29,030 nt of DNA, from IMG/VR virus record IMGVR_UViG_3300046751_000713, positions 1 to 29,030 of that record; one strand, 5' to 3'. The stretch comes from a virus. A model generated the notes under the pieces. The model made no database searches and was not told where the DNA came from. It saw nothing but the letters and a program-made list of their open reading frames with translations. Both the position numbers and the translations under genes were made by a program. This document shows, in pieces, positions 16,026 to 28,541 of the stretch (positions are counted from its first letter, which is position 1; every line of letters starts with the position of its first letter).

Positions 16026-16621
16026 TGACTACCTATAACGCAATAACAGACTCAGAAATTTCTTTAGATGCGCCTGTAAAAAATGAGTTAATGAAGGCAT
16101 TGAAAGATAACCCAAAAGCAATTGCAGAGGGGGATGCGTCTGCGCCAACAACAACTGATGGCGGCAAAACGTCAACTATTAATCATTCTGCTTTATCATT
16201 AGAAACAAATGATTATGGTGACGTTATTATATGGCAAGAAACTGGCTATTGTGTAAATGCTGATTCAAGCATTTGTAGTATTTATATAAGAAATGCTGGA
16301 AAATATAGGTTTACAGCGAATGTTAGAAATGGCTCTACAGAAGCAAGAGATGCCTCAGTAAATAGTAGCGCAAAAGCTACCGTTAGGGTTAGGCAAAATG
16401 ATCATAATAACGGTGATGCCATAACAACTATTAATAGCACTGAACTTGTTAATGGGGCAGTTATGTACCATGTGCATGATTTAGATTTGGCAGCGAATGT
16501 TACTATATTTTTGCGTGTAGAAGAAACTGTAAGTAGAATTCAAGTAAGCGCAACTTTAAGTTGCTCTGTTGTTAATCCTGATGCAATGTATGGAGTTGAT
16601 GTAAGAGGAAATTTGACATAA
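16025..16621 (+). CDS. Fibre-like tail protein, tandem paralogue 3
   Basis: A 198-aa relative: YNAITDSEISLDAPVKNEL, then MKALKDNPKAIAEGDASAP, ending AMYGVDVRGNLT. It matches paralogue 2 most closely at both ends while the central beta region differs, the pattern expected when a receptor-binding or decorating part diversifies between fixed attachment modules. It overlaps both neighbours by one base (TAATG at each side). No catalytic motif is visible. Confidence 0.6.
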   Translation: MTTYNAITDSEISLDAPVKNELMKALKDNPKAIAEGDASAPTTTDGGKTSTINHSALSLETNDYGDVIIWQETGYCVNADSSICSIYIRNAGKYRFTANVRNGSTEARDASVNSSAKATVRVRQNDHNNGDAITTINSTELVNGAVMYHVHDLDLAANVTIFLRVEETVSRIQVSATLSCSVVNPDAMYGVDVRGNLT

Positions 16622-17160
16622 TGGTTGAGCAAATTGATCCTGGTAAAGTTTTTTTGACCTTTAACAGTTGGGATTACTGGAATAAAACTGTTTTAGATTT
16701 ATGTAACGGTGAGGGAAAAGGTAGACCGCACGAAAGGGGGTCAAAAAAAGCTAATATCTTAAAAAATTGCAGAGAGGATAACATAGCTGTTAATGCTAAG
16801 TTTTTTAATGTAAGACGTAACAATGATTTTGCTGTAAAGTTAATTGATTTATCTCAGTGCCTTAGAAAATTGCATCCTGATTGTAATGTGGAGCTTAGAA
16901 ATTATGTTCACTACAGAAGCGGTGACTTCATGGGATGGCATACTAATAAGTATCAAGCTGGACATAGATATTATTTAATATGGGCTGAAGAAGAAGGTAA
17001 ATCTTTTTTTGAGTACGAAAAAGACGGAAAAATTATATCTTTGCCTGACAAAAAAGGTTGGAGTGTAAATAAATTCTTTTGTGGCGATGATGATAAGCTT
17101 TTTCCTCATCAAGTAGTAAGTAACACTAACAGGGTTTGTATAGGATTTAAGCTGAAATAG
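16621..17160 (+). CDS. 2-oxoglutarate/Fe(II) oxygenase-like protein
   Basis: The 179-aa protein has the C-terminal pattern of a double-stranded beta-helix oxygenase: NYVHYRSGDFMGWHTN (His107), RYYLIWAEEEGKSFFEY, a GW segment, then PHQVVSNTNRVCIGF with His163 and Arg171. These could be the metal His pair and the 2-oxoglutarate Arg. The usual HxD/E is HTN here (Asn109), so one metal ligand is changed or lies elsewhere. If active it might hydroxylate a tail protein or a host target; nothing visible fixes the substrate. It is placed between fibre-like genes and the tail fibre. The fold is moderately supported and the activity is uncertain. Confidence 0.5.
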   Translation: MVEQIDPGKVFLTFNSWDYWNKTVLDLCNGEGKGRPHERGSKKANILKNCREDNIAVNAKFFNVRRNNDFAVKLIDLSQCLRKLHPDCNVELRNYVHYRSGDFMGWHTNKYQAGHRYYLIWAEEEGKSFFEYEKDGKIISLPDKKGWSVNKFFCGDDDKLFPHQVVSNTNRVCIGFKLK

Positions 17161-26297: not shown

Positions 26298-26519
26298 CTA
26301 ACTATCGTTATCTAAATACCAATCTGCCACCCGGCACTTCTCATTCCATCGGTTCTTAACCGTCTTCATTTCAGTTACTATTGGAATCCCTTCATTTCTC
26401 AACTCAGTAATCCTGGCCGTAACATTCATGATTCCAAGATCAATGTAAGCTTTTTTTCTATCAAGTCTTTTACCACTTTCAAGATATTCCATGATTCTTT
26501 CACATTGCTTATTACTCAT
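26298..26519 (-). CDS. Helix-turn-helix protein, HTH_39-like
   Basis: The 73-aa protein reads SNKQCERIMEYLESGKRLDR then KKAYIDLGIMNVTARITELR and NEGIPIVTEMKTVKNRWNEK. The spacing of YLESGK, the ALNLxG-like YIDLGI and the ITELRNEGIPI segment matches the HTH_39 (helix-turn-helix domain 55) family found in phages. It is likely a DNA-binding regulator. AAAGGGG (minus strand) precedes its ATG by about 7 nt. It follows the methyltransferase stop by 11 bases. Confidence 0.7.
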   Translation of the reverse strand: MSNKQCERIMEYLESGKRLDRKKAYIDLGIMNVTARITELRNEGIPIVTEMKTVKNRWNEKCRVADWYLDNDS

Positions 26520-26530
26520 AACAAACCCCT

Positions 26531-27904
26531 TTAGTTAGTTAATCGATTGCTTAAAGTTTTCCATGCTACTGCTGCTGTTGCTGGTACTACTCCATTTCCC
26601 AGAAGTCTAAGTCTGTCCACCCTGTGGGTAAACCCATCAGTTGCTCCACCCACGCACTGTTCAGTTTTCCATATGACTCTTGGTTCTTCCCATTCGTACT
26701 GGAAACTTCCTGCCCCGGCTGGCCAGGCCTGTCTTTTTTCATCGGCTCTCGATCCACTTCCTTGCCATGTACTTGTGGATGATTCGCTAACCCCAGTTGG
26801 CCGTAGTTCGGTCTGTTGCTGACCTTCTGAGCTTGCGCTACATCGGGTGTCGGCCAATTCTTTTGATTTAACTCCGCTATCTGTCGAGGCAACTGGTCGT
26901 TTCTTTTCTTCCCGTCTTTTCTGGTTTTCGCCACTTTCGTCACTGAATCCTTCCAATCTCTCGCATTTGGCGTAGCCCAAGACTGTTGTTTGGCTACCTG
27001 AGTTTCCAGATTGGGGTGTTTCGCTTTGGCAGTATTCTCGGTTATGTTTGCGGTCATTGCCGAGCAAGTTCGTGGCGTAGCCCATTTCTGGCTTCGCTCT
27101 TGATTCTTCACCTGCTCCGTCAGGCATCCCTCGACATACTTCCGACCGATGCTCTCCCTGTATTGCTTGCGCTTCTCCATCCCTTCTGGGGTTCTGTCGA
27201 TGTCCACTGTCGATGGTGTCAACCATTTCTTCTCTTCCGAGGTTTCCACAGCATCCCTGAGCTTCGCCCCAAAGAATTGATTGCTGGTCTTCCTGATCGA
27301 CTTGAATCCCTGATCCGTTATCACTGTGTCTATCCTGCCCCCCTCCGCATCGGAAGTCCTTGCAGTCGGCCATGATAAAGACTCTTTTTCTTCGATGAGG
27401 TGCGCCACATTCTTCCGCGCTGAATATAGACCACGTTGCTCGGTAACCTCGGCTTTCCAATGTTCTAAGGACATAGAGCAATACTGGGGTGTTGTCATGC
27501 ATTTTTGCTGAGATGATTCCTTCGACATTTTCAAAGAAGACTCTTCCTGGTCTGCACTCATCGATAATTCTAAGGATGTCTGGAAATAAGTGTCTTGGGT
27601 CTTTGTCGGCTTTTCGACTTCCTGCGGCTGAGAATGGCTGACAAGGAAACCCGGCTGTGAGTAAATCCACGCATCCCTTGTAGGGTCTGGCATCCAGTGT
27701 TTTGAGATTTGTCCACACAGGGCAAGATACCATTTGTCCCTTTTGCATTTTCTTAAGTGCGACTGCAACGGGATAGGCTTCGATCTCACTAATAAGGATG
27801 TTTCTAATAGGTTGTCCTGTTGACTCGATTCCAAGCTCGACACCGCCATATCCATAGCAGAGGCTGATGGTTCTAAGGGGATTAATGTTTTCGGCAATAT
27901 CCAC
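26531..27904 (-). CDS. DNA cytosine-5 methyltransferase (frame A)
   Basis: The 457-aa enzyme adds a methyl group to C5 of cytosine in DNA using S-adenosylmethionine. From GTG 27904: motif I-type ISLCYGYGGVELGIES (13-28), catalytic PCQ loop GFPCQPFSAAG (85-95, Cys88), ENVEG (125-129), HRRKRVFI (170-177) and a C-terminal motif X GNGVVPATAA (436-445). The region 180-420 (target recognition) is hydrophilic, poor in hydrophobic core residues, and contains five short repeats such as MADC, MVDT, MGYAT, LGYAKC and LADTRC. It likely protects phage DNA against host restriction. It shares one SD with a second frame starting at 27906. The gene starts within the ERF stop (TAATGTG). Confidence 0.88.
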   Translation of the reverse strand: MDIAENINPLRTISLCYGYGGVELGIESTGQPIRNILISEIEAYPVAVALKKMQKGQMVSCPVWTNLKTLDARPYKGCVDLLTAGFPCQPFSAAGSRKADKDPRHLFPDILRIIDECRPGRVFFENVEGIISAKMHDNTPVLLYVLRTLESRGYRATWSIFSAEECGAPHRRKRVFIMADCKDFRCGGGQDRHSDNGSGIQVDQEDQQSILWGEAQGCCGNLGREEMVDTIDSGHRQNPRRDGEAQAIQGEHRSEVCRGMPDGAGEESRAKPEMGYATNLLGNDRKHNREYCQSETPQSGNSGSQTTVLGYAKCERLEGFSDESGENQKRREEKKRPVASTDSGVKSKELADTRCSASSEGQQQTELRPTGVSESSTSTWQGSGSRADEKRQAWPAGAGSFQYEWEEPRVIWKTEQCVGGATDGFTHRVDRLRLLGNGVVPATAAVAWKTLSNRLTN

Positions 27905-27906
27905 AT
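26587..27906 (-). CDS. Overlapping open frame B in the methyltransferase gene
   Basis: The frame +1 relative to the methyltransferase is open from ATG 27906 to a TAG at 26589-26587, 439 codons. Its first 170 residues look unstructured and may be non-functional, but after 179 it carries five WxTP modules (W179, W228, W275, W310, W351) such as WPTARTSDAEGG and WATPNARDWKDS, and it ends NSAWVEQLMGLPTGWTDL (416-433). I recall this WxTP ... WVEWLMGFPxGWT pattern from database proteins linked to phage methyltransferases. It may be a separately translated protein, a C-terminal extension reached by frameshift from frame A, or a shadow. It is listed because the motif content exceeds chance. Confidence 0.45.
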   Translation of the reverse strand: MWILPKTLIPLEPSASAMDMAVSSLESSQQDNLLETSLLVRSKPIPLQSHLRKCKRDKWYLALCGQISKHWMPDPTRDAWIYSQPGFLVSHSQPQEVEKPTKTQDTYFQTSLELSMSADQEESSLKMSKESSQQKCMTTPQYCSMSLEHWKAEVTEQRGLYSARKNVAHLIEEKESLSWPTARTSDAEGGRIDTVITDQGFKSIRKTSNQFFGAKLRDAVETSEEKKWLTPSTVDIDRTPEGMEKRKQYRESIGRKYVEGCLTEQVKNQERSQKWATPRTCSAMTANITENTAKAKHPNLETQVAKQQSWATPNARDWKDSVTKVAKTRKDGKKRNDQLPRQIAELNQKNWPTPDVAQAQKVSNRPNYGQLGLANHPQVHGKEVDREPMKKDRPGQPGQEVSSTNGKNQESYGKLNSAWVEQLMGLPTGWTDLDFWEME

Positions 27907-28541
27907 TACGCCCCCTTCAAAAGCTTTCGCTCTTCAGTTGTAAATGGAGCAGTAGATACTTTTGTTGGCGCTTTCCACATAGCCCTCTGATCATCTTCAC
28001 TAATCTCACCAAATGCTTCCTTAGCTAACAGTACGTTCTCAGGGGTTGGGTCAGCTAAATAACTTACAACCGCATCAACTGATGGCTTGTTTCTAAATAC
28101 TGCCTCAGCGCATAGCTCGGCCTCTGACGGCTCAACTGGCTTTCCCCGCATCATCGCTGCCTCTGCGTCCGAATCTGCAACTGGAAGCCCCAGGACGCTG
28201 GATAATCCATACCGCCGCGCATACGAGAGGCAAGCGCCCGCTGCCTGTGGGTCTGACTTAACCATTGGCATAGTAAACTCATTACTTACCCACTCACCGC
28301 TTTTATGCATCAACACTGTTTCAACACCGATACCGTTACCGCCAGTACTGGTAATTGGAAACTGGACATAGCTAAGGCCGTTGGCGCATAGTGGGTCTTT
28401 GACTGCCTTAATGACAGATGTCAGGTCGGCATAAGATGACTTAAAGAAAGGGTTTGTGCTGTCTTTAACAGCGCCACCCATTTGTTGTTGCGCTAGATTT
28501 AGAGCTAACGCAAGGTTAGCAATACTTTCTGATTTATTCAT
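27906..28541 (-). CDS. erf: ERF-family ssDNA-annealing recombinase
   Basis: The 211-aa protein promotes annealing of complementary single strands in recombination-dependent replication or repair. Residues 25-120 show the ERF pattern: STNPFFKSSYADLTSVIKAV, LCANGLSYVQ, VLMHKSGEWVSNEF, SDPQAAGACLSYARRYGLSS and LGLPVADSDAEAA. The C-terminal 70 residues are a less conserved helical tail ending FTTEERKLLKGA. GGAGG on the minus strand is spaced about 9 nt from ATG 28541. The stop overlaps the ATG/GTG starts of the methyltransferase gene. Confidence 0.9.
   Translation of the reverse strand: MNKSESIANLALALNLAQQQMGGAVKDSTNPFFKSSYADLTSVIKAVKDPLCANGLSYVQFPITSTGGNGIGVETVLMHKSGEWVSNEFTMPMVKSDPQAAGACLSYARRYGLSSVLGLPVADSDAEAAMMRGKPVEPSEAELCAEAVFRNKPSVDAVVSYLADPTPENVLLAKEAFGEISEDDQRAMWKAPTKVSTAPFTTEERKLLKGA

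Follow-up and report, generated by a model that had tools for sequence, protein, structure and literature searches.

A phage C5-cytosine methyltransferase gene with a second, overlapping reading frame that probably encodes the other half of a split enzyme

The stretch of DNA analysed here (the window) is a viral record of 29,030 bases, and two long reading frames lie over one another on its minus strand. Frame A encodes the predicted catalytic chain of a C5-cytosine methyltransferase, referred to as alpha, and frame B a second predicted protein, beta (Table 1). The 439-codon frame noticed in the original prediction for this locus is exact in its position, strand, ATG start and +1 relation to the methyltransferase. 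Beta starts 2 bases ahead of the alpha start, and all that remains of it lies inside alpha. Directly upstream, at 27906-28541 (-), is a gene for an ERF-superfamily single-strand annealing protein (PF04404, E=5.7e-22), and directly downstream of the methyltransferase, at 26298-26519 (-), is one for a small winged helix-turn-helix protein (PF14090, E=1.3e-12). A DNA similarity search of plasmids gave no match.

Table 1. Features of the two overlapping frames, in coordinates of the window
Feature	Coordinates	Strand	Remarks
alpha (frame A), C5-cytosine methyltransferase catalytic chain	26531..27904	(-)	457 aa, GTG start
beta (frame B)	26587..27906	(-)	439 aa, ATG start; +1 frame relative to alpha
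ATGTG double start, beta ATG overlapping alpha GTG	27902..27906	(-)	from sequence
Shine-Dalgarno-like AAGGGGG	27911..27917	(-)	4 nt ahead of beta ATG
alpha motif I, ISLCYGYGGVELG	27830..27868	(-)	by homology to M.HhaI
alpha motif IV, GFPCQPFS, catalytic Cys	27629..27652	(-)	P87, C88, Q89 and S92 invariant in 16 frame-A sequences
alpha motif VI, ENVEG	27518..27532	(-)	E125 invariant in 16 frame-A sequences
alpha motif VIII, GAPHRRKR	27383..27406	(-)	A168, H170, R172 and R174 invariant in 16 frame-A sequences
alpha motif X, RLRLLGNGVVP	26582..26614	(-)	in frame A
beta module 1, WPTARTSD...	27226..27372	(-)	77% identical to L030 module; L030 alpha core 54%
beta module 2, WLTPSTVD...	27085..27225	(-)	79% identical to phage C75C1 module; core 49%
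beta module 3, WATPRTCS...	26980..27084	(-)	72% identical to L041 module; core 51%
beta module 4, WATPNARDWK...	26857..26979	(-)	exchanged cassette in close relatives
beta module 5, WPTPDVAQ...	26665..26856	(-)	97% identical in L014, L015 and L016
beta motif IX-like element, LNSAWVEQLMGLPTGWTDL	26608..26664	(-)	L415, N416, W419, L423 and M424 invariant in 58 sequences

Frame A matches phrog_363 (E=3e-49) and, over residues 11-187 only, PF00145 (E=1.3e-35). Motifs I, IV, VI, VIII and X, which the original prediction had listed for the methyltransferase frame, are all present. No recognisable motif IX was found in frame A, where the PF00145 and M.HhaI matches stop near residue 187; on the M.HhaI side the match is confined to residues 9-174. 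The C-terminus of frame A, which holds motif X, matches positions 286-318 of phrog_1008 weakly. As judged by its motifs, frame A is a C5-cytosine methyltransferase chain, its methylation activity being predicted; the motif IX-like element and the probable target-recognition region are not on this chain but in frame B.

Frame B matches positions 126-281 of phrog_1008 (E=4.7e-21), so that phage relatives of its WxTP sequence, mentioned when the frame was first noticed, do exist. The phrog_1008 entry is labelled DNA methyltransferase and is matched by both frame B and the C-terminus of frame A; it describes no nested frame. Frame B had no match in Pfam (E up to 1) or NCBIfam, nor, as a single protein compared by sequence, among solved structures at E up to 1, and the frame-B profile gave matches to solved structures at chance level only. 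The predicted structure of beta alone is of low confidence (mean pLDDT 58.2, pTM 0.26), and nothing that corresponds to its N-terminal 180 residues is known from one-chain enzymes. The modules start at residues 179, 228, 275, 310 and 351; the spacings of 49, 47, 35 and 41 residues given earlier are correct on re-check. Of the five WxTP modules described at that time, four are strict WxTP, and module 1 reads WPTA instead. The frame ends in VEQLMGLPTGWTDL, as had been read.

With the frame A protein held fixed, 20,000 permutations of its synonymous codons were made. The permuted genes were open in +1 over a longest stretch of 155 codons in the mean and 385 at the maximum, compared with 438 observed (P < 5e-5), and the longest open stretch in the +2 frame of the window is 60 codons. 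A frame-B profile was then made from other loci, gathered with a frame-B alignment led by an Acinetobacter phage. This profile scores 74.5 bits on frame B of the window and -2.3 on the +2 frame, compared with 22.0 ± 8.6 bits (maximum 45.8) on 300 codon-permuted versions. For 323 loci in which frame A covers frame B, permuted genes are expected to hold 1,805 stops in the overlap and none is observed, a zero that is partly by construction, as the open frame itself defined the overlap. At only 12 of the 323 loci is frame B open in more than 5% of the permuted genes.

Both frames are under purifying selection across 153 homologous pairs. These pairs of overlaps are disjoint; changes were classed by their effect in each frame, stop-making changes were excluded, and phantom +1 frames in 130 flanking-gene pairs served as the control. 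Some contigs in the sample were retrieved by more than one search, and the homologues, one set excepted, were found via frame B, a fused actinophage relative or the frame A of the window. For frame B, dNN/dNS is 0.24 (95% CI 0.21-0.27), compared with 0.79 (0.63-1.01) in the phantom frames, and dSN/dSS is 0.45 (0.40-0.53), compared with 1.18 (1.01-1.43); for frame A, dNN/dSN is 0.15 in the 153 pairs. The window's own clade gives 0.365 with wide limits (0.20-0.97), being represented by five pairs only, two of them near duplicates. The first 45% of frame B has a dNN/dNS of 0.43 and a dSN/dSS of 0.49, and the regional values are 0.20 for the modules and 0.17 for the last 120 nt. Frame A has a dNS/dSS of 0.68 in the module region, not far from the value for a phantom frame of matching orientation (0.86), which suggests that it is carried along there largely as a passenger obliged to remain open. 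For the ratio of third to first codon position rates in frame A we obtained 4.40 in control genes, 1.48 in the overlap and 0.55 in the modules, and from this last value frame B dominates in the modules.

The original prediction had proposed overprinting or a dual-frame methyltransferase, and these results support it. Homologues do not carry stops throughout frame B, which lies in +1 in 73 of the 79 loci sampled with frame A as the query, and frame A does not evolve free of constraint from frame B, as the dNN/dNS of 0.24 against 0.79 indicates. Within the limits of what sequence can show, dual coding is established.

The arrangement recurs in hundreds of viral loci, and the second protein is mostly unannotated. 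We collected 345 loci, which lie on viral contigs or in the genomes of bacteria from many phyla, the latter presumably being prophages. Both parts could be scored in 343, with frame B in +1 in 340 and in the core's own frame in three (L018, L019 and L251), and there was no +2 pairing among the 343; at the other two of the 345 loci no methyltransferase core was detected beside frame B. One of the 340, L346, is mis-paired and actually holds two tandem nested methyltransferase pairs; it was the sole apparent case of a stand-alone frame B, which was rejected on that ground. The tandem pairs (L346:1866-3770) belong to two different subtypes and lie on one Pseudodesulfovibrio contig. The remainder of the 79 frame-A-query loci consists of three contig fragments, two loci that are open in +1 without a scored frame-B C-terminus, and one with the frame-B motif in frame A. 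Two different frame-B queries matched 116 and 221 phage records. The second gene is annotated in some phages, namely K1H, Diva, Firecracker, ArV1 and PhiXhv-5. In Erythrobacter phage ZS04 (L106:1635-2072), a hypothetical protein is annotated antisense across the methyltransferase region, and because of the frame overlap this annotation is probably wrong.

At the 5' end, the first base of the beta ATG is also the last base of the ERF stop codon (TAATG). The ATGTG start is found in 36 loci, 30 of which have a Shine-Dalgarno-like 4-mer, and in a second start class (88 loci) beta begins 4 nt after alpha. No other alpha start lies ahead of the core in the window. This layout suggests that one ribosome-binding site is common to alpha and beta.

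The end of frame B carries the pattern LN...W...LMG.P, which is invariant across 58 sequences and motif IX-like; canonical phage enzymes have LTPRECWRLQGFPDWAF at the corresponding place. In actinophage relatives such as Rita and L350 the core is followed, after motif VIII and in one frame, by LPTP modules, EWMMGWPAGW and motif X. Comparison of the frame-B profile with that of the fused C-terminus gave a probability of 96.7% (E=3.8e-10) over the modules and motif IX. The motif IX region of the fused form is colinear with M.HhaI 273-308, with a score that is not significant alone, and the predicted model of the fused protein resembles M.HhaI over residues 2-384 (Z 22), with pLDDT below 50 in the module region. 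At nine loci alpha does not extend beyond motif VIII, and motif X is located in beta. The same parts are thus met in three layouts: as one chain, or as two chains with motif X on either alpha or beta. Since relatives rearrange and fuse these parts, alpha and beta appear to be functionally tied. The absence of motif IX from frame A and its apparent supply by frame B, the fused relatives and the ATGTG start overlap all go beyond the original prediction.

Traces of the second frame are seen in the fused actinophage genes themselves. In L350 (2197-2562), and also in L351-L365, the N-terminal half of beta and one or a few modules are still open in +1, although the methyltransferase frame has taken over the remainder of beta. 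A different in-frame join is found at L251:1973-2773, where the core, apparently through a deletion, runs on into the C-terminal portion of frame B and motif X is missing; the gene is possibly decayed.

The modules behave as exchangeable cassettes. Module 4 of the window is 100% identical in L015, although the catalytic cores are only 49% identical. The overlaps of the window and L012 are 90-100% identical, except for module 4, with about 52% nucleotide identity. We found 5,353 module pairs with at least 60% identity, and 2,410 of them join different ordinal positions. Beta proteins have zero to seven recognised modules with a median length of 38 residues, as counted with a simple pattern that includes some false starts; single-linkage clustering put most modules in one family, and we claim no count of module types. 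From its position, variability and exchange, the module array most likely forms the target-recognition region, and the modules would then read DNA sequence.

We consider it probable, at roughly 80%, that this one stretch of phage DNA encodes a split, dual-coded C5-cytosine methyltransferase in two frames of the same strand. Alpha would provide AdoMet binding and catalysis (motifs I-VIII) together with motif X, and beta would provide the module array of W-x-T-P type, motif IX and an N-terminal part lying over the catalytic core in the other frame. The same ribosome-binding site would start beta at the ATG and alpha at the overlapping GTG, and alpha and beta together would form a single enzyme. 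Under this scheme, read from the sequence, beta would be translated and would bind alpha, and the phage would protect or mark its own DNA with the enzyme. A bolder version can be imagined, in which beta serves as a recognition subunit that can be programmed: each WxTP module would specify one target, arrays of one to seven modules would be reshuffled between phages as cassettes readable in both frames, several sequences would be methylated at once by one enzyme, and subunit dosage would be set by ATGTG. We regard this version as possible, though less likely than not.

Several other explanations of frame B were weighed. Frame B could be a shadow of frame A, open by composition and owing its conservation entirely to frame A. 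Permuted genes do retain part of the frame-B profile score (a mean of 22 of the 74.5 bits), which means that the frame A protein fixes some frame-B residues; but the permutation, profile, codon-position and selection tests reject a shadow in several independent ways, and canonical phage enzymes with motif IX in frame A carry 13 and 19 stops in their +1 frames. Barring alignment artefacts in the selection tests, we regard a shadow frame as extremely improbable. Just as improbable is an out-of-frame homing endonuclease inserted in the methylase gene, the arrangement described for the ShiLan element (PMC11855218). In both cases a phage methylase gene hides a further frame, and the frame-A matches include phage ShiLan. 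However, frame B covers the whole gene and is not an insertion, its C-terminal part is homologous to the methyltransferase C-terminus, and, having no Pfam match at E up to 1, it shows no detectable HNH domain, so an HNH homing endonuclease in the hidden frame is disfavoured.

Programmed frameshifting from frame A into frame B would yield one chain, with motifs I-VIII from A and the modules and motif IX from B. One-chain relatives do exist, and where alpha is short, one +1 shift past motif VIII would be enough to produce a whole enzyme as a single chain. Most loci, the window included, nevertheless have motif X back in frame A, so that a single shift would lose it; the N-terminal 45% of frame B, which the shift would skip, is under selection (0.43 and 0.49, against 0.79 and 1.18 in the phantom frames), and a Shine-Dalgarno-like site precedes the conserved ATG with which frame B itself begins. 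This makes frameshifting unlikely, and we judge it equally unlikely that frame B encodes a separate protein of different function, acting for instance against restriction or in the control of the methyltransferase. The long N-terminal part of beta, of unassigned function, and the lack of Pfam or NCBIfam matches would suit a separate protein, but frame B is found essentially only alongside a methyltransferase core, relatives have its modules and motif IX joined to that core in one frame, and motif X moves between the two frames.

M.EcoHK31I has a small chain of about 176 residues that is encoded inside the large one in another frame, and the small chain of the window is likewise nested in the large gene. 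In this two-polypeptide enzyme (YGGCCR), motifs I-VIII and X are on the large chain and motif IX is on the small one, and the target-recognition domain is predicted to lie in the large chain (PMC3404938). The large chain of the window similarly holds motifs I-VIII and X without IX. Unlike M.EcoHK31I, the window has its probable recognition region in beta, as suggested by position, codon periodicity and exchange, and its beta has 439 residues with five modules. Likened by its description, M.EcoHK31I appears to be the closest described enzyme, and the window gene would be a variant of it rather than a shown member. M.AquI, also made of two polypeptides, has motifs I-VIII on the catalytic chain and the variable region with motifs IX-X on the second chain (PMC3404938). 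Its layout is like that of the nine loci with motif X in frame B; the window differs from it in having motif X in alpha and a beta that is almost wholly nested in alpha. A core with an overlapping +1 gene is annotated in Escherichia phage K1H (ORF29/ORF28) and Paenibacillus phage Diva (g49/'g49 internal gene'), and also, with partial overlap only, in Firecracker (gp6/gp5) and Arthrobacter phage ArV1 (067a/067b). The annotations in these four phages name no subunit role. The multispecific phage C5 methyltransferases of SPR and phi3T carry tandem recognition domains in one chain and in frame. They resemble beta in having tandem exchangeable units of similar length in the variable region, a likeness in layout rather than a shown homology. 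No description of the overlap in phage methyltransferases was found in the open-licence literature, which is weak evidence, as older and subscription papers are mostly outside it. What is new relative to M.EcoHK31I is that beta is modular, that the two chains have a shared double start and that the arrangement is spread so widely across phages.

To our knowledge, long same-strand overlaps with demonstrable selection on both frames are rarely documented in bacteria and phages; the present one is repeated at hundreds of viral loci, where usually only one of the two proteins has been annotated. If the split enzyme is real, many phage methyltransferases recorded as single proteins stand in the databases without their recognition half, which would mislead both specificity prediction and expression attempts. 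The module array raises the question of how a phage can alter its methylation specificity by exchanging cassettes where two frames are coded at once, and the double start that of how a single ribosome-binding site sets the ratio of two subunits.

Elsewhere in the window, among the structural genes, a 179-residue protein is encoded at 16621-17160 (+). It has no Pfam match; by eye, it could be a 2-oxoglutarate/iron oxygenase.
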